From Glycomyces lechevalierae (GTDB lineage Bacteria > Actinomycetota > Actinomycetes > Mycobacteriales > Micromonosporaceae), in contig NZ_JAPZVQ010000004.1 of the NCBI RefSeq assembly GCF_027622945.1, positions 124,001 through 188,000 of the forward strand: DNA of 64,000 nucleotides, read 5' to 3'. Every line of letters starts with the position of its first letter. Positions within the stretch are counted from its first letter, which is position 1. Shown in pieces: positions 45,315-52,524 of this stretch. The notes under the pieces were generated by a model. That model had not been told where the DNA came from. It saw nothing but the letters and a program-made list of their open reading frames with translations, and made no database searches. Both the position numbers and the translations under genes were made by a program.

Positions 45315-46852
45315 TGCTCGGCCTGGCCGCGATCAGCCTGGTGCTCGCCGCCAGCGTCGTCATCGGCGTCTGGGGTGTGCGCGCGGCACGCTCCACACCG
45401 GACTTCCTCGTCGCCTCGCGCAGCATCGTCCCCGGCTGGAACGCCCTCGCCATCGCGGGCGAGTACGTCTCCGCCGCATCCGTTCTCGGCCTCGCCGGAC
45501 TGCTCGTCAAGAACGGCGTGGGCGCGATGTGGTACGCCGTGGGATTCACCGCCGGGTACGTGCTCGTCGCCGCGCTGGCGGCCGGGCCGATGCGCCGCAG
45601 CGGCGCGTACACGGTGCCCGACTTCGCCGAGTACCGGCTCGGGTCGCCGCGCATCCGCCGCATGTGCGGCCTGGTCGTGCTCGTCATCATGCTGCTCTAC
45701 CTACTGCCGCAGTTCAAAGCGGCCGGGGTCGTGCTCGAACTCGTCTCCGGCATCCCGTACTGGATCGGCGTGGTCGGCGCGGGCCTCGTGGTCTCCTCCG
45801 CGATCGCCGTGGGCGGCATGCGCTCGGCGACCTATGTGCAGGCCTTCCACTACCTGGTGAAACTCGCGTTCATCGCCGGGCCGGCGGTGTTCCTCATCGC
45901 CCTCGCCTCGCCCGAGCGGCGCGACGCGGCCCTCAACCCGAGCCCGCACACGGACTGGTCGCGCCCGCTGCTCGACCTCGACGGCTCCGGGCACCCGCTC
46001 CTCGCCACCATCTCGGTCCTGGTCGCGACCACGTTGGGCGCCATGGGACTTCCGCACGTCGTGATGCGCTTCCACACCGTCGCCGGCGCCCGCGCGGCCC
46101 GCCGCGTGGCCGTCTCGGTGATCGTCCTGCTCAGCCTCTTCTACCTGTGGCCGGTCGTCTACGGCCTCCTCGGCCGCGTCACGACTCCCACGCTCGAGGA
46201 GACGGACGTGGTGCCGCTGCTCGTCCCGGGCGCGATCGTCCCCGGCTCGGTGGGCGCGGTCCTCACCGCGCTCGTCGCGGCCGGCGCGTTCGCGGCGTTC
46301 CTCTCGACCTCCTCGGGGCTCCTCCTCGCGCTCGCCGGGGGCCTCTCGCACGACCTGTTCGGCGGCTCGCTCTCGCGCCTGCGCCTCGGCGTCGTGGTCG
46401 GCACCGCGCTCGCGGTCGCGCTCTCCCTTCCTGCCTCCGATGTGGACATCAACGTGCTCGTCGGCTGGGCGTTCGCCGTGGCCGCCTCCACGTTCTGCCC
46501 GCTGCTCACCCTCGGCATCTGGTGGCGCGGCCTCACCGCGACCGGCGCGACGGCGGGCCTGCTCGTGGGCGCGTGCACCTCCACCGGCGCGGCGCTCGCC
46601 TCGGTGGTCCTCGACCTCGAACCGGGCGTCGTCTCCGTCCTCCTCGCTCAGCCTGCACTGTGGACGGTCCCGCTCGCGTTCGTCACGATGATCGCCGCGT
46701 CCCGGCCCGGCTCGGTCCCCAACTGGGCCAGCGAGGCCGTGCTGCGCCTCCACGTGCCCGGCCGCTACTCGACCGGCGACACCGGCGCGATCCCGCGCGC
46801 ACGCCGGACCCCGCCCGACAAACGGGTGGACGCCACGGATGAAACCGGATAA
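45314..46852 (+). CDS. SSS-family symporter, second copy
   Basis: 512 residues, about 13 helices. Symporter motifs: FLVASRSIVPGWNALAIAGEYVSAASVLGLAGLLVKNGVGAMWYAVGF, LGAMGLPHVVMRFHTVAGARAARRVAVS and AFAAFLSTSSGLLLALAGGLSHDLFG, aligned with the first symporter but divergent. Same family as ActP/YidK, with carboxylate specificity inferred. The promoter of the downstream erm leader begins inside its last codons. Confidence 0.9.
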   Translation: MLGLAAISLVLAASVVIGVWGVRAARSTPDFLVASRSIVPGWNALAIAGEYVSAASVLGLAGLLVKNGVGAMWYAVGFTAGYVLVAALAAGPMRRSGAYTVPDFAEYRLGSPRIRRMCGLVVLVIMLLYLLPQFKAAGVVLELVSGIPYWIGVVGAGLVVSSAIAVGGMRSATYVQAFHYLVKLAFIAGPAVFLIALASPERRDAALNPSPHTDWSRPLLDLDGSGHPLLATISVLVATTLGAMGLPHVVMRFHTVAGARAARRVAVSVIVLLSLFYLWPVVYGLLGRVTTPTLEETDVVPLLVPGAIVPGSVGAVLTALVAAGAFAAFLSTSSGLLLALAGGLSHDLFGGSLSRLRLGVVVGTALAVALSLPASDVDINVLVGWAFAVAASTFCPLLTLGIWWRGLTATGATAGLLVGACTSTGAALASVVLDLEPGVVSVLLAQPALWTVPLAFVTMIAASRPGSVPNWASEAVLRLHVPGRYSTGDTGAIPRARRTPPDKRVDATDETG

Positions 46853-46853
46853 T
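46827..46853 (+). promoter_or_regulatory. Putative leaderless promoter of the erm leader-erm transcript
   Basis: A GATAAT -10 element at 46848-46853, close to consensus, has TGGACG at 46827 (four of six to TTGACA, spacing 15) upstream. The leader ATG is only 9 bp downstream, so the mRNA would begin at or next to that ATG. It overlaps the end of the symporter gene. No clear AT-rich WhiB7 element is seen. Confidence 0.5.
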
Positions 46854-46862
46854 CTCGCGGCC

Positions 46863-46937
46863 ATGTACGGGTCTCCGGGGCAGTACGCGTCCGCCGCGTC
46901 CTGCCCGATCTTCATTCGGCTGCGCGCGGCGGCCTAG
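46863..46937 (+). CDS. Putative erm leader peptide (24 residues)
   Basis: A short frame from ATG 46863 to TAG 46937, 109 bp upstream of the erm gene. The C-terminal part reads C-P-I-F-I-R-L-R-A-A-A. I-F-x-I is the arrest motif of the ErmC leader (IFVI) and R-L-R that of the ErmD-type leaders, both of which stall macrolide-bound ribosomes. No Shine-Dalgarno precedes it, which fits leaderless translation. Its stop lies inside a GGCCTAGGCC palindrome that can pair with 46995-47003. Not proven, but position, length and motifs together are persuasive. Confidence 0.6.
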   Translation: MYGSPGQYASAASCPIFIRLRAAA

Positions 46938-47049
46938 GCCACCGCAAGCGCTTCTTGTTCGACCGCCGCTCCGCCGGCGGCCGCGCCCTGCGCGGGCCTA
47001 GGCGAATCGATCGTCCTGATTCGACTCGTCCCATGGAGCATCTCCCATG
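46931..47049 (+). promoter_or_regulatory. Candidate translational attenuator of erm
   Basis: Several stems can form: GGCCTAGGCC (46931-46940) with GGCCTAGGC (46995-47003); CCGCCG / CGGCGG (46963-46980); CGAATC / GATTCG (47003-47023); and CATGGAG (47032-47038) with CTCCCATG (47042-47049, one bulge). The last hairpin hides both the erm ribosome binding site GGAG (47035-47038) and the start ATG (47047-47049). A ribosome stalled on the leader would disturb the first stem and could free the last, as in known inducible erm genes. Confidence 0.55.
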
Positions 47050-47841
47050 TCCCGCAGCCATTTCCAGCCTGCCCGCAGCGCCTCTGCCCGCAAGGCCCTG
47101 TCCCAGAACTTCCTGCGCGACGCGAACATCGCCCGCGCCTTCGTCGCCTCAGCCGGGGTCGGCCCGGACGACCTCGTCATCGAAGTCGGCCCCGGCGACG
47201 GCGCGATCACGCGGCCGCTGCTCGACCGCGCCGGCCGTGTGATCGCCTACGAGAAGGACCGCCACTTCGTCGAACGCCTGCAGTCGCGCCTCGGCCACCA
47301 CGAGCACTTCCGCTGCCACCACACGGACTTCCGCGACGTGCGGCCGCCGGGCGAGCCGTTCCATGTGGTTTCGAACGCGCCCTTCGGGATCACCACTGAC
47401 ATCGTCCGCTGGTGCCTCAGCGCGCGCACGCTCGCCTCGGCCGCGGTCGTCACGCAACTCGAGTTCGCCCGCAAGCACACCGGCGACTTCGGCCGCTGGA
47501 GCCGCCTCACCGTCGCGCACTGGCCCGAGTTCGAGTTCGCGCTCGGCATGCGCATCGACCGCCGCGAGTTCCGGCCCGTCCCGCAGGTCGACGCCGCCGC
47601 GATCCACCTGCGACGCCGCCCGGAACCCTTGCTGCCCAAGGCCGACCTGGTCGACTACCGCGACCTCGTGGACCTCGGCTTCTCCGGCGTCGGCGGCTCC
47701 CTCGCCGCGTCCCTGTGCCGCGTCGTCCCCAGGCGCCTCGCACACCGGGCCTGCGCCGAAGCCGGCATCGGCCGCGAGCAGGTCGTCGGCCACGTCCCGC
47801 CCGACCGCTGGATCGCCCTGTTCGAGGCGCTCACGCGTTGA
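47047..47841 (+). CDS. erm: Erm-type 23S rRNA (adenine-N6)-methyltransferase
   Basis: 264 residues. N-terminal ARKALSQNFLRDANIARAF and motif I VIEVGPGDGAITRPLLDRAGRVIAYEKDRHF form the SAM site; motif IV SNAPFGITTDIVRW corresponds to the N-x-P-F/Y catalytic loop of rRNA adenine methyltransferases. The C-terminal part (RPVPQVDAAAIHLRRR ... ASLCRVVPRRLAHRA) matches the Erm rather than KsgA layout. Methylates A2058 of 23S rRNA and so gives macrolide-lincosamide-streptogramin B resistance. Start ATG 47047 with GGAG 8 bp upstream, both in a hairpin. A leader peptide precedes it. Confidence 0.92.
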   Translation: MSRSHFQPARSASARKALSQNFLRDANIARAFVASAGVGPDDLVIEVGPGDGAITRPLLDRAGRVIAYEKDRHFVERLQSRLGHHEHFRCHHTDFRDVRPPGEPFHVVSNAPFGITTDIVRWCLSARTLASAAVVTQLEFARKHTGDFGRWSRLTVAHWPEFEFALGMRIDRREFRPVPQVDAAAIHLRRRPEPLLPKADLVDYRDLVDLGFSGVGGSLAASLCRVVPRRLAHRACAEAGIGREQVVGHVPPDRWIALFEALTR

Positions 47842-47912: not shown

Positions 47913-49025
47913 ATGAGCGAAGCCATCTGGATCGAACTGATCAGGGTGCTGCCCGCATTCCTCTGGGTCGCCTTCGGATTCATCGCGCTCGCCTTCGCCA
48001 AGCGGCTCTTCACCGCCCAGGCCCCGCGCATGACCAAGGTCGAGACCCCTTGGGTCACCGTCGAACTCGCCCAGCAGGCGATCGAACAGGCCGGGCTGCG
48101 CGGCTCCGCCGCCCCGCTGAACGTCGAGCCGGCCTGGCCCTCGAACCTGTATCCGCTGCCGACGCAGCAGGTCCCGCCCGGGAACCGAAACGACGTCCAC
48201 GGCCTCCCGATCAGCGGCGCAGGGCCGCTCCCGCCCGAGTTCCAACCGCCCGCGGACGAGGACACCGACGACGCCGTCCACACCGAGCCGCCGCCCGAAG
48301 CGGAACCGGACCACCACGCCACCCCGCCCGCGGACACCCCTGCCGATGGCACCGAACCCCCCGACCTGGACCCGCGCGCCGCCGTCACCGCCCCGAACCG
48401 GCAGATCCCGAACATCCCGCCCACCTACCCGGCCATCGCGTCCCCGCCCGGCGGCACCTCTCTTGGGCAGGCCGCTCGACCTCAGGCCGACTTCCACTGG
48501 AACCAGCCACTTCCGGCGGCGTACCGGCAGCCGCCTGCGTACCGGCCCACCGAAGCCGACAGCCGGCGCAGCCGGCGGGCGGCGACCCGTCTCGCTTCCG
48601 CGGCCAAGTTCCTGGAAGGCGGCTCGATTCTGTGGGTTGACGATCACCCTGAGAACAATGAGTCGCTGGTATTCCTCTTCCAATCGGTCGGGATTCAAGT
48701 CGACCTCGTGCTCTCGACCGAAGCGGCAATGCAAGCCCTGAGAAGCAACTCGTACGACCTCGTCATCAGCGATATGGGCCGGTACAACGAGTCGGCAGGG
48801 GCGAAAGCCGGCCTTGCGTTGCTCGACCGCTTCGAGGAGCAGCACATCATCGCCCCAGTGGTGCTCTACACCAGTGGCTCGAAAGCGCGGGGCGCTTCCC
48901 ATCCCAGGCTGGTGGCGGCGACGGCGGATCCGGAAGACGTAGTGAACTATGTCGTCGACTTCCTCGGGCACCGCCAAGGCCAACAGACTCAGCGAGCCAG
49001 TTGGTTTGATCGACTGAAAGGTTGA
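47913..49025 (+). CDS. Membrane-anchored protein with C-terminal receiver-like domain
   Basis: 370 residues from ATG 47913 with TTGGAG upstream. One membrane helix at about 8-32 (LIRVLPAFLWVAFGFIALAFA), then about 200 residues of Pro-rich, low-complexity linker, then a receiver domain from about 240: ILWVDDHPENNE (acidic pocket), LVISDMGRYN (candidate phospho-Asp), PVVLYTSGSKARG and DPEDVVNYVVDFL. No output domain follows, and no kinase is adjacent. The receiver part has visibly lower GC (from about 48640) than the linker. Role unknown; possibly a membrane signalling switch for the downstream ABC operon. Confidence 0.75.
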   Translation: MSEAIWIELIRVLPAFLWVAFGFIALAFAKRLFTAQAPRMTKVETPWVTVELAQQAIEQAGLRGSAAPLNVEPAWPSNLYPLPTQQVPPGNRNDVHGLPISGAGPLPPEFQPPADEDTDDAVHTEPPPEAEPDHHATPPADTPADGTEPPDLDPRAAVTAPNRQIPNIPPTYPAIASPPGGTSLGQAARPQADFHWNQPLPAAYRQPPAYRPTEADSRRSRRAATRLASAAKFLEGGSILWVDDHPENNESLVFLFQSVGIQVDLVLSTEAAMQALRSNSYDLVISDMGRYNESAGAKAGLALLDRFEEQHIIAPVVLYTSGSKARGASHPRLVAATADPEDVVNYVVDFLGHRQGQQTQRASWFDRLKG

Positions 49026-49048
49026 CGCGGCGAAACAGTGTTAACCGT

Positions 49049-49078
49049 TTGCCGCGTCGGCTCGCGCCTGACTACCTT
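49049..49078 (+). promoter_or_regulatory. Leaderless promoter of ABC exporter operon 1
   Basis: TTGCCG at 49049 and TACCTT at 49073, spacing 18; the GTG start is six bases after the -10. The same TTGCCG-N18-TACnnT-N6-GTG layout, with TTAA-CG just upstream, is found at 59124 for the paralogous operon, which supports both. Confidence 0.6.
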
Positions 49079-49084
49079 GGCCTT

Positions 49085-50776
49085 GTGTCACTCCTCCGCG
49101 CACCCGAACTGCCCGTAGACGACCCCGGCCGACCACCTGTCACCTCCTGGCGCCTCTTCACCTGGCTCGCCACCCGCCGCAAAGGACTCGCCGCCGCCGT
49201 CCTCGTCTCCGCGGTCTTCTCCCTCGGGCTCGTCCCCGTCATGCCGATCTTCCTCACCGGCGCCGTCGACGACGGCCTCGCGCAACGCGACTGGGGCGCG
49301 CTCCTCGTCTGGGCCGGCGCCCTCACCCTCGCCGGATCCGTTGCGGCCGTGAGCATCGTGCTCCACCACCGCCTCACCGTCTGGTGGCGCCACGACGCCC
49401 AGTACCGCGTCCTGCAGCTCGCCACCCGCAAGACCGCGCGGCTCGGCTCGCGCCTGCGCCGCCACACCACCACCGGCTCGGTCGTCAGCGTCGGCGTCAC
49501 CGACGTCGTCTCGATCGGCCGCGCCATCGAATCCCTCGCGCCCACCGTCGGCTGCGTGACCGGCATCGTCGCGGTCGCCGTGCTGCTCATCGGCATGTCG
49601 GCGGTCCTCGGCCTCACCGTCTTCATCGGCGTGATCGCCGTAGCCGCGATCACCGGGCCCATGCTGCGCCGCCTCCAGACCCGCTACGGCGCCTTCCGCA
49701 GCGACATCGGTCGCGTCACCGAACGCGCGGCCGACATCGTGGCCGGCCTCCGCGTCCTGCGCGGCGTCGGCGGCGAAGACCGCTTCAACGCCGCCTACCG
49801 CCAGGACTCCCAGCGCCTCAAGCGATCCGGGTTCGGCCTCGCCGCCCCCGGCGCCTGGATCGACGCGATCTCCGAAGGCGCCCCGGCGATCCTGCTCGGC
49901 GCGGTCGTCTGGATGTCCGCGCGCCTCGTCGCCTCCGGCGACATCACCGTCGGCCAGATGGTCGCCGCGTTCGGGTACACCGCCGCGCTGCTCATGCCCG
50001 TGCGCTGGCTCATGGGCACCGCCATGACCATCATCCAGGGCGAGGTCGCCTGCGCGAAGGTCGGCGAACTCCTCGCCCTGCCCGAACGCGCCGCCCCGCG
50101 AGACCCCTTGCCGGGCCCCGAAACCGGGGCCGAACTCCACGACCCCGACTCCGGCCTCAGCCTCGCTCCCGGACTCACCGCGGTCGCGACCAGCGACACC
50201 GACGCCGCCGCCGCGATCTTCGACCGCCTCGCCGGCCTCGAACCATCGGCAGCGGTCTTCGGCCCGATCCCCCTCGCGCGCATGGCCTCTGACGAACTGC
50301 GCCGCCGCATCCTCCCCGGCGACCACGACGCGTACCTCTTCGCGGGCGCCCTCACCGCCGTCGTCGGCGGCCGCGACCCCGAGGCCGCCATCGCCGCGGC
50401 CGCCGCCGAAGACATCGTCGACGCCCTCCCCGACGGCCTCGCCGCTGAAATCGACAACCAGGCCCGCACGCTCTCCGGCGGCCAGCGCCAACGCCTCCGC
50501 CTCGCCCGCGCCCTCGCCGCCGAACCGGAAGTCCTGCTCCTCCTCGAACCCACGTCCGCAGTGGACTCCCACACCGAAGCGCGCATCACCGAGCGCCTCA
50601 CCGAGTTCCGCCACGGCCGCACCACCGCGCTCGTCAGCGCCTCCCCGCTCTGGCTCGGCCGCGCCGACCAGGTCGCCTTCGTCCAAGACGGCAAGGTCGC
50701 CGCCACCGGCACCCACGCCGAACTCCTCGCCTCCCGGCCCGACTACCGGGCCCTCGTGAACCGGGAGCTCTCATGA
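49085..50776 (+). CDS. Heterodimeric ABC exporter, subunit with degenerate Walker motifs (operon 1)
   Basis: 563 residues from GTG 49085; start chosen because SLLRAPELPVDDPG aligns with the N-terminus of the paralogue at 59160. Six-helix exporter domain (residues about 30-310), then an NBD of about 200 residues. LSGGQRQRLRLARAL is intact, but Walker A is absent (LAPGLTAVATSDTDAAAAIF where GxxGxGKST should be), Walker B reads L-L-L-L-E-P-T without its Asp, and the H-loop His is Ser (VSASPLWLG). It cannot bind ATP normally by itself and needs the next gene's product. Overlaps it by 4 bp (ATGA). Confidence 0.9.
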   Translation: MSLLRAPELPVDDPGRPPVTSWRLFTWLATRRKGLAAAVLVSAVFSLGLVPVMPIFLTGAVDDGLAQRDWGALLVWAGALTLAGSVAAVSIVLHHRLTVWWRHDAQYRVLQLATRKTARLGSRLRRHTTTGSVVSVGVTDVVSIGRAIESLAPTVGCVTGIVAVAVLLIGMSAVLGLTVFIGVIAVAAITGPMLRRLQTRYGAFRSDIGRVTERAADIVAGLRVLRGVGGEDRFNAAYRQDSQRLKRSGFGLAAPGAWIDAISEGAPAILLGAVVWMSARLVASGDITVGQMVAAFGYTAALLMPVRWLMGTAMTIIQGEVACAKVGELLALPERAAPRDPLPGPETGAELHDPDSGLSLAPGLTAVATSDTDAAAAIFDRLAGLEPSAAVFGPIPLARMASDELRRRILPGDHDAYLFAGALTAVVGGRDPEAAIAAAAAEDIVDALPDGLAAEIDNQARTLSGGQRQRLRLARALAAEPEVLLLLEPTSAVDSHTEARITERLTEFRHGRTTALVSASPLWLGRADQVAFVQDGKVAATGTHAELLASRPDYRALVNRELS

Positions 50777-52524
50777 CCGCCGAGACCGAACTGCCCGTCG
50801 CCGAACCCGAACGCGTCCGCCGCGCCTTCGTCGCGCTCCTCCTCTCCGAGCGCGCCCGCGTCGGCGTCGCCATCGCACTCCGCGTCGCCGCCGCCGGTGC
50901 CTCCACCGCCGCGCCGCTCCTCATGGGCCGCATGATCGACGCCCTCGCCGCGGGTGAAGGCATCGGTGACATCGACATGATCGCCGCCGGCATGGCCGCC
51001 GCGATCGCGGCAGCCGTCGCTCTCACCTGGCTCGCCGGCTTCACCGCGAACCGCGTCGGCGAACGCCTCTCCGCCCGCCTACGTGAACGCTTCGTCGAGC
51101 AGTGCCTACGCCTCCCGCTCCACACCGCCGAGCAGGCCGGCGCGGGCGACCTCATGACCCGCACCTCCGTGGACGTGCCGCAGTCGGGCAACCTCATCCG
51201 CGAATCCATCCCCAGGGCCGCGGTCGCGATCCTCACCGCGCTCGTCTACATCGGAGCGATGATCTGGGTCAACGCCCTCCTGGCGCTCTGCATGGTGCTG
51301 GCCGTCCCGCTGATCGCGGTCGGCGCCCGGTGGTACCTCAAGCGCGCCCGCGACGGCTACCTCGCCCAGGCCCGCACCGAATCCCGCTCCGGCGAAGCCC
51401 TCTCCGCGACCGCCGACGGCGCCCGCACCGCCGAGCTCCACCGCCTCGAAGCCGACCGGATCGCCCACGGCGACACCACGATCGCCGCGCACTGGGCCGC
51501 CAACAAGTACACGCTCTACCTGCGCAGCGTCTACTTCCTGACCCTCGAAAGCTCTTATGTGCTCCCCGCCTCGGCCGTTCTGGTCCTCGGCGGCGCCATG
51601 TACTTCGACGGCGCCGTGACCCTCGGCGAGGTCGCCGCCTGCGCCGTCCTGTCCCGTCAGATCATGACGCCCATGAACTTCCTGCTCATGATGGTCGAAT
51701 GGCTCCAACGCGGCTTCGCGTCCTTCGCGCGCGTGGAAGGCATCGCCGCGATCGACACGGATGAGCAGGCCGCCGCCGCGGCGCTGCCCGCAGACGGCAC
51801 CGTCGCGCTCCGCTCTGTCCACTTCGCCTATCCGAGCGGGCCCGAAGTCCTCCACGGGGTCGACCTCAGGATCCCCGCGGGCGAACGCCTCGCCGTCGTG
51901 GGCCCCAGCGGCGCCGGCAAATCCACCATCGCCCGCCTCGTCTCCGGCATCGACGCCCCCACCTCCGGCCAGGTCACCATCGGCGGTGTGGACGTCGCGA
52001 CCCTTCCTCTCAGCGAACGCCGCGGCCACGTCACCCTCGTCACCCAGGAGCACCACGTCTTCACCGCGACCCTCCGCGACAACCTCACCCTCGCCAAACC
52101 CGACGCCGACGACGCCGAACTGCGCCGAGCCCTCGCCACCGTGGGTGCCGCCTGGGCCAACGACCTCGACGCCGAACTGGGCGGCACCGCAAAGGAACTC
52201 GACCCCGCCGCCGCCCAGCAGATCGCTTTGGCCCGCATCATCCTCGCCGACCCCGACGTCGTCATTCTCGACGAGGCCACCGCCATGCTCGACCCCCGCG
52301 CCGCCCGCGACACCGAACGCGCCCTCGCGGCCGTCCTCGAGGGCCGCACCGTCATCGGGATCGCCCACCGCCTCCACACCGCCCACGACGCCGACCGGAT
52401 CGCTGTCGTCGAGGCCGGGCGGCTCGCCGAACTCGGGAGCCATGACGAACTCCTGCAAGCGAACGGGCCTTATGCTCTGCTCTGGAACACCTGGCACGGC
52501 ACGAGCGAGCGGAGCCCGGCATGA
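50773..52524 (+). CDS. Heterodimeric ABC exporter, subunit with intact Walker motifs (operon 1)
   Basis: 583 residues. Membrane domain with six helices to about 320, then an NBD with Walker A GPSGAGKST, Q-loop LVTQEHHVF, Walker B VVILDEATAMLD and H-loop IGIAHRLH. The signature, however, is E-L-D-P-A-A-A-Q-Q-I-A-L-A-R in place of L-S-G-G-Q. With the upstream subunit, one composite site would combine this Walker A/B with the partner's LSGGQ; the other site is dead on both sides. Overlaps the PP2C gene by 4 bp. Export substrate unknown; drug or peptide export is inferred. Confidence 0.9.
   Translation: MTAETELPVAEPERVRRAFVALLLSERARVGVAIALRVAAAGASTAAPLLMGRMIDALAAGEGIGDIDMIAAGMAAAIAAAVALTWLAGFTANRVGERLSARLRERFVEQCLRLPLHTAEQAGAGDLMTRTSVDVPQSGNLIRESIPRAAVAILTALVYIGAMIWVNALLALCMVLAVPLIAVGARWYLKRARDGYLAQARTESRSGEALSATADGARTAELHRLEADRIAHGDTTIAAHWAANKYTLYLRSVYFLTLESSYVLPASAVLVLGGAMYFDGAVTLGEVAACAVLSRQIMTPMNFLLMMVEWLQRGFASFARVEGIAAIDTDEQAAAAALPADGTVALRSVHFAYPSGPEVLHGVDLRIPAGERLAVVGPSGAGKSTIARLVSGIDAPTSGQVTIGGVDVATLPLSERRGHVTLVTQEHHVFTATLRDNLTLAKPDADDAELRRALATVGAAWANDLDAELGGTAKELDPAAAQQIALARIILADPDVVILDEATAMLDPRAARDTERALAAVLEGRTVIGIAHRLHTAHDADRIAVVEAGRLAELGSHDELLQANGPYALLWNTWHGTSERSPA

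Follow-up and report, generated by a model that had tools for sequence, protein, structure and literature searches.

A conserved, apparently leaderless Arg-X-Arg leader precedes the resident erm gene of Glycomyces and probably acts as a macrolide-sensing attenuator

INTRODUCTION

How is the resident erm gene of an actinobacterium switched on, and what does a short open reading frame (ORF) directly in front of it contribute? The best-studied erm leaders are those of the Firmicutes, in which a Shine-Dalgarno (SD) sequence precedes the leader. In a Glycomyces locus, a preliminary description had noticed a short frame upstream of erm, on an apparently leaderless mRNA, whose peptide seemed to fuse two known macrolide-dependent arrest motifs, I-F-x-I (ErmC type) and R-L-R (ErmD type), and had proposed that stalling there opens a hairpin over the erm start. 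Here we compare this locus with erm loci from Glycomyces, from other Micromonosporaceae, and from the rest of the class.

RESULTS

A short ORF is conserved in front of a resident erm gene

The stretch of DNA that was analyzed, a 64-kb window, sits in a 5.6-Mb draft genome and carries the following features at the erm locus.

46863..46937, + strand: leader ORF MYGSPGQYASAASCPIFIRLRAAA, 24 codons plus TAG, apparently leaderless, C-terminal PIFIRLRAAA, kept in 20/20 Glycomyces loci
46917..46925, + strand: Arg-Leu-Arg codons CGG CTG CGC, R[LIM]R in 20/20 loci
46920-46922, + strand: Leu codon predicted to occupy the P site of a stalled ribosome, the geometry being by analogy with ErmDL (excerpted text of PMC8298421)
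47047..47841, + strand: erm, 23S rRNA (A2058-N6)-methyltransferase, 264 amino acids, NF000499 Erm23S_rRNA_broad at 240.5 bits (cut-off, 212)

Both the short frame and the erm ATG at 47047 are thus where they had been placed before. Membership of the methyltransferase in the named ErmE/ErmH/ErmO/ErmR group (NF000337) was considered and not adopted, the score of 313.4 bits falling just below the cut-off of 320. Twenty of 22 Glycomyces genomes are erm positive, and all 20 carry a leader with R[LIM]R; a sodium/solute symporter 5′ of erm is present in the sequence of 18 of the 19 other distinct Glycomyces loci (the exception is L013). Because erm occurs in 20/22 genomes and its symporter neighbor is kept, we regard the gene as resident. 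Relative to the window, identities in L003 to L015, L029, and L038 to L043 were 61 to 85% for Erm versus 74 to 94% for the symporter (where found), so that Erm is the less conserved of the two.

Directly 3′ of erm and in the same direction, positions 47913-52524 hold a gene whose product has a response-regulator domain at its C terminus, followed by two overlapping ABC-type exporter genes. A response-regulator-like match lies 3′ of erm in 15 of the 19 other distinct Glycomyces loci, but the first exporter is matched in only 4 of 19 (L006, L008, L011, and L040), although the available sequence is long enough at several others. In Glycomyces algeriensis DSM 44727, a 5.8-kb erm locus occurs twice in identical form on separate scaffolds (L006 and L007), owing either to recent duplication or to an artefact of assembly.

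Conservation of the leader across related erm loci had been set beforehand as a test, and the leader was kept throughout: in all 20 distinct Glycomyces loci, a co-directional ORF of 22 to 25 codons lies directly 5′ of erm and ends in R[LIM]R plus three residues. Its commonest form is M-Y-G-S-P-G-L-N-A-C-A-A-F-G-P-C-F-I-R-L-R-A-A-A. These ORFs were picked by peptide ending and not by promoter, except at L041, where two in-frame ATGs match the peptide pattern and the upstream one, with a TANNNT, was taken. Across 12 length-matched leaders (the codon table leaves out leaders of other lengths and L040, which has 24 codons but is out of register), Met1, Gly3, Ser4, Pro5, Gly6, Ala12, Arg19, Arg21, and Ala24 are invariant. 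Several of these residues are written with synonymous codons: Gly3 with three, Ser4 with TCT, TCA, or AGT, Pro5 with four, and Arg19 with CGG or AGG. At these positions, it is thus the residue and not the codon that is conserved. Third-position change was not in excess in the leader, with variable columns numbering 13/11/11 by codon position, counts to be read beside the fact that the 3′ end of the leader is also constrained as RNA. No Rfam element matched the window at gathering thresholds. By this comparison of loci, the leader ORF in front of erm is real.

The conserved part of the peptide is the Arg-X-Arg motif. As an arrest motif, R-L-R (or R-I/M-R) bears out the earlier reading, being kept in 20/20 leaders, but the first isoleucine of I-F-x-I is not kept: among the 20, IFI is confined to the window leader, and position 16 of the 12 length-matched leaders is most often C (7 leaders), then Y (2), with single occurrences of I, S, and T. 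The supposed ErmC/ErmD fusion is therefore a one-species coincidence. With IFI in 1/20 Glycomyces leaders, assignment to the ErmC-type class, which is marked by a conserved I-F-x-I, was rejected.

The leader start lies where a WhiB7/WblC-type promoter would place +1

Two promoter elements precede the leader.

46850..46855, + strand: −10 element TAATCT (TANNNT), 7 nucleotides (nt) 5′ of the leader ATG, in 20/20 Glycomyces loci
46818..46832, + strand: WblC/WhiB7-like box ACAAAC (46818-46823), 3 bp, and −35 TGGACG (46827-46832), consensus score 8/10

The GATAAT that had been taken as the −10 element, 9 bp before the ATG, is present at 46848-46853, but the conserved register is that of TAATCT at 7 bp. 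The accompanying view, that of an apparently leaderless mRNA in an actinobacterium, gains support from the comparison, as all 20 Glycomyces loci have a TANNNT precisely 7 nt 5′ of the ATG. In Streptomyces coelicolor, the promoters that WblC activates follow GAAAWY-N3-TKGMNN-N16-19-TANNNT, and most of their transcript starts lie 7 or 8 bp past the −10 element (excerpted text of PMC7157823), so the transcript start would coincide with the leader ATG. For mycobacteria, leaderless initiation is described as requiring an ATG or GTG at +1 and nothing more (PMC4633059, in the portion available).

The same leader design is found before erm genes beyond Glycomyces

Loci were scanned mechanically for TANNNT, 6 or 7 nt, an ATG or GTG, and 8 to 50 codons with RxR past residue 4, no more than about 650 nt from erm. 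A leader was found at 20/20 Glycomyces loci, at 54 of 70 from other Micromonosporaceae, and at 54 of 66 from the rest of the class, or 128/156 in all. The same 156 loci gave no match in the reverse complement of the upstream sequence and none in stretches of up to equal length running from the erm start onward; 20 dinucleotide shuffles averaged 0.1, 0.5, and 0.5 loci in the three sets and never exceeded 2. No locus among the 156 had matches in two frames, and the leader ORF is the sole match on both strands of the window.

The 70 family loci were sampled from 97 non-Glycomyces erm-match rows of the first search. The class-wide search supplied 69 loci; 9 rows better than about 1e-26 were not taken, nor were the remaining weaker matches, several of which are probably RsmA. 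L001 is the window; the identical L006 and L007 were counted once; L025 to L028 and L030 to L037 repeat named loci, and L129 repeats L054. L140, a same-family genome from the class search that has the leader, is in neither set, and L172 (without upstream sequence) and the distant homologues L002 and L016 to L024 were dropped.

The leader thus carries a conserved +X+ motif (Arg/Lys-X-Arg/Lys), as R[LIM]R in 20/20 Glycomyces loci and as RxR in 54/70 and 54/66 outside the genus. In the first RxR of the 128 leaders, X is Pro in 52, Leu in 39, Ile in 20, Met in 7, His in 5, Lys in 2, and others in 3. When residues were shuffled within each leader, RxR arose in 42% on average, and so the RxR count is partly a matter of composition. 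Among loci with any leaderless short ORF, RxR was present in 54/54 from the class and 54/62 from the family. The loci are related; single linkage on Erm identity gave 50 clusters at 70%, 32 of them with a leader, and 12 clusters at 60%, 6 with a leader. A relaxed scan of the 28 missed loci turned up look-alikes in 9, which stay outside the counts: six with RxR and a spacing of 8 or 9 (L074, L120, L124, L132, L157, and L182) and three RPW-x-RR variants (L051, L078, and L096). Taken together, these sequences indicate that the leader design is probably general in actinobacteria.

Two leader families stood out. In many Micromonosporaceae (L047 to L101), a large family of the form M-x-THALI...RPRVRRPALAG precedes erm; its RxR is followed by several arginines and its N-terminal HALI is conserved too, so that it may sense through more than one part. 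The second ends approximately in A-(V/F)-A-(Y/F/S)-W-R-(I/P)-R-x-x-x-T-A and lies before divergent erm genes (33 to 36% identity) at L155, L156, L159 to L162, L164, L165, L170, L171, L173, and L174, with a GTG start in 5/12.

The promoter is shared as well. The −10-to-start spacing is 7 nt in 100 of the 128 leaders and 6 nt in 28, and the start codon is ATG in 107 and GTG in 21, the scan having admitted these two alone. Against GAAAWY-N3-TKGM, scored as the best over four spacers with a maximum of 10, the window box matches at 4/6 positions (weak) and its −35 at 4/4, for 8/10 with a spacer of 17. The architecture of box, 3 bp, −35, spacer of 16 to 19, and TANNNT scores at least 8 at 95/128 leaders (11/20 in Glycomyces, 45/54 in the family, and 39/54 in the rest of the class), and shuffled upstream DNA would be expected to yield 0.1, 0.2, and 0.3, respectively. 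The genome also encodes a WhiB7 homologue (PF02467 match at G000:C10), in an ORF with GVWGG and an RGRPRK AT-hook; within the 700 bases 5′ of this whiB7 ORF, the leaderless-ORF scan found a sole candidate, which is TTG started.

Conserved helices link the leader stop codon to the erm ribosome binding site

Between the leader and erm, the RNA of the 20 Glycomyces loci suggests the following elements.

46932..46940, + strand: segment 1, GCC-TAG-GCC over the leader stop codon, pairing with segment 2 (RNAalifold, pair counts, swap test)
46995..47003, + strand: segment 2, GGCCTAGGC, complement of segment 1 (RNAalifold, pair counts, swap test)
47003..47023, + strand: near-invariant hairpin CGAATC/GATTCG, 99% of cells paired in 20 loci, 3/5 counted pairs invariant
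47029..47037, + strand: anti-SD hairpin TCC-CAT-GGA over the erm SD sequence GGAG (47035-47038); UCC/GGA or a shifted equivalent in 20/20 loci, by a permissive pattern written after the sequences were seen
47032..47049, + strand: CATGG/CCATG start-site hairpin of the preliminary description, possible in 8/20 loci

The RNAalifold consensus of 20 sequences contains the leader stop/segment 2 helix, CGAAUC/GAUUCG, and UCC/GGA on the erm SD, with a covariation term of −0.01 of −21.5 kcal/mol. In these three helices, 97.1% of cells are paired, versus 94.6% when shuffled and at most 47.1% when slid. Cells changed on both sides number 10 versus 3.3 in shuffles (0/500 as high, phylogeny ignored), and all of them fall in the 1:2 helix, where two pairs show double changes in RNAalifold and the pair counts; no excess was seen in pairs with both-side changes (2 versus 2.1 shuffled) or in further pair types (10 versus 10.7). 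When segments were swapped between loci, cognate 1:2 combinations averaged −29.80 and noncognate ones −28.07 (permutation P of 0.00025, phylogeny ignored). The 2:3 pairing weakened slightly (P of 0.15, phylogeny ignored), and the 3:4 hairpin showed no coevolution (swap P of 0.997, phylogeny ignored). Equally stable distal 2:3 pairing arose in 0.49 to 0.73 of shuffles for the window and L003 to L006 and in 0.09 to 0.16 for L008, L010 to L015, and L039, and the mean over 20 loci was −14.86 versus −14.31 kcal/mol for shuffles.

The helices are thus backed by comparison of the loci, and the intergenic RNA appears to combine a near-invariant hairpin with an anti-SD hairpin and, over the leader stop, a helix that covaries. 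The start-site hairpin on which the earlier mechanism turned is indeed present in the window, but it can form in 8/20 loci and is limited to a clade, which rules it out as a conserved switch. Features of a translational attenuator were found, namely, a conserved 1:2 helix that includes the leader end and an anti-SD strand, also part of the RNAalifold consensus, that masks the erm SD; the conserved helices suggest an attenuator. No intrinsic terminator with a T run was found in 46700-47200. A long-range pairing between the RLR codons and the first erm codons contributes three pairs to the consensus, with no double changes. At L008 its two sides change compatibly, CTG to TTG in the leader and AGC to AAC in erm, but several other loci break the pairing, and we do not rely on it. 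Outside Glycomyces, pairing between leader end and intergenic RNA did not exceed the level of shuffles in the family (mean z of −0.05) and did so only modestly in the class (mean z of −1.12). Lineages that share the leader design may therefore differ in the RNA part.

Folding with a ribosome parked on the leader

When the leader end was masked as if by a stalled ribosome, predicted accessibility of the erm SD rose from 0.18 to 0.23 in the window; over the 20 loci, it rose in 16, was flat in 1, and fell in 3, the rises often being slight. Start-codon accessibility fell in 12/20, including the window (0.13 to 0.01), was level in 1, and rose in 7, and the previously proposed start-site hairpin stays closed in the window fold with a ribosome parked at RLR. 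An index of 1:2 pairing without masking was high in 12 loci, middling in 3 (0.69 in the window), and low in 5, and masking lowered the window value to 0.58. Folding models therefore do not clearly predict that stalling frees the erm start. Folding and covariation over homologous erm loci, which had been proposed as a check, returned conserved helices but not a clear freeing of that start.

DISCUSSION

A likely sequence of events

We think it likely, though well short of certain, that the leader and erm together form a macrolide-sensing attenuator before the resident Glycomyces gene, working in full as follows. From a WhiB7/WblC-type promoter, the transcript would begin at the leader ATG or one base earlier, as the promoter spacing suggests, and with its start at the ATG the leader would be translated as a leaderless ORF. 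Without a stall, stop-codon segment 1 would pair with segment 2, the erm SD would sit in the anti-SD hairpin, and erm expression would stay low. A ribosome bound by a macrolide or ketolide would pause at Arg19-Leu20-Arg21 while Leu occupies the P site, as the ErmD leader suggests. Given the size of the ribosome footprint, an ErmDL-like stop would bring the leading edge of the ribosome to about the UA of the stop codon of the leader, so the ribosome would cover segment 1 to about that point, invading and weakening the 1:2 helix; refolding downstream would then permit expression of erm. By analogy, the Arg-Leu-Arg peptide probably stalls macrolide-bound ribosomes and so switches resistance on. 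Both the stall and the freeing of the start site are inferences, as is the level, translation or transcription, at which release would act.

The template for this analogy is ErmDL, a leader of the +X+ class, which likewise is a short ORF with Arg-Leu-Arg before erm; its arrest leaves the Leu of that motif in the P site, with Arg in the A site, and telithromycin requires both arginines and erythromycin less so (all from the excerpted text of PMC8298421). The differences are that RLR lies at residues 19 to 21 here and at 6 to 8 in ErmDL and that the Glycomyces leader lacks an SD sequence, is apparently leaderless, follows a WhiB7-like promoter, and is joined to a different RNA, with stalling here a prediction.

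Other readings of the locus

The leader could instead act on transcription, with a stalled ribosome keeping transcription from ending too early in the stretch between leader and erm. In the portions of the literature available, whiB7/wblC and ARE-ABCF genes are described as being under uORF-mediated transcription attenuation; the RNA from leader to erm folds strongly, with z < −2 in 19/20 Glycomyces loci, and the folds give no clear release of the erm start. The lack of T-run terminators in 46700-47200 speaks against this, however, and the anti-SD pattern on the erm SD, present in all 20 loci, fits translational control. We rate transcriptional action as possible rather than probable. It is unlikely, in our judgment, that the promoter alone is drug responsive, such that WhiB7/WblC induces erm and the leader is idle or merely a coupling ORF. 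The WblC-like box and the WhiB7 homologue with its AT-hook would supply the means, and in S. coelicolor WblC raises the mRNA of SCO6089, an Erm(O)-type gene (PMC7157823, in the excerpt available), but such a promoter leaves unexplained why RxR is retained at 20/20 Glycomyces loci and 128/156 overall, why serine and arginine are kept via different codons, and why a helix covers the leader stop codon.

We regard as very improbable the reading from which the question arose, that I-F-x-I and R-L-R are two joint arrest motifs with the hairpin at 47032-47049 as the switch. Both strings and the hairpin are literally present in the window sequence, yet the isoleucine of the first string gives way mostly to cysteine in the other length-matched leaders, and the hairpin, besides its restriction to 8/20 loci, is predicted to be closed in both states in the window. 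An attenuator built on Arg-Leu-Arg and the helix over the leader stop is the reading that we carry forward.

Relation to known systems and significance

Each part of this system has a precedent: +X+ arrest leaders, leaderless regulatory ORFs of mycobacteria, and WhiB7/WblC control of erm. Canestrari in 2020 reportedly described leaderless cysteine-rich uORFs that act as attenuators in mycobacteria. The Glycomyces leader resembles the candidates proposed for mycobacteria (PMC4633059, in part) as an apparently leaderless, putatively regulatory ORF at the head of an operon, whereas those are linked to cysteine and the Glycomyces leader lies before a resistance gene and would respond to a drug. 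The box, spacing, and −10 element match WhiB7/WblC regulon promoters, and that regulon holds an Erm(O)-type gene; the excerpted text of PMC7157823 makes no mention of a leader peptide for that erm, and the window box is weak. Within the actinobacteria, leader-based control of erm has been proposed for corynebacterial erm(X) (PMC3350403, in part). No paper joining Glycomyces and erm was found in the openly licensed full-text literature, and the titles and abstract openings listed from it included none that describes the combination of the three parts or a leaderless erm leader peptide. Streptomyces ermSF and ermSV are inducible erm genes. So are Streptomyces pikR1 and pikR2 (PMC6685928, in the part available). 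Set beside what the accessible parts of these sources report for erm(X), ermSF, ermSV, and pikR1/pikR2, the predicted leaderless start and the class-wide conservation are features reported here. Judged by the openly licensed literature, the class-wide leader design seems to have been previously unrecognised as a class.

Whether actinobacterial erm genes share a two-key switch, made of a WhiB7/WblC promoter and a leaderless RxR leader, with leaderless 70S initiation itself part of the sensor, we consider an evenly balanced proposition. On that reading, global ribosome stress would give the transcript and the specific macrolide would give expression. The proposal makes it testable whether drug-bound 70S ribosomes initiate and stall on leaderless mRNAs. 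If true, more than 100 natural leaders in which X is Pro, Leu, Ile, or another residue would be at hand for work on the specificity of macrolide and ketolide sensing, and the design would account for the induction of a sizable fraction of the erm genes resident in soil actinobacteria.
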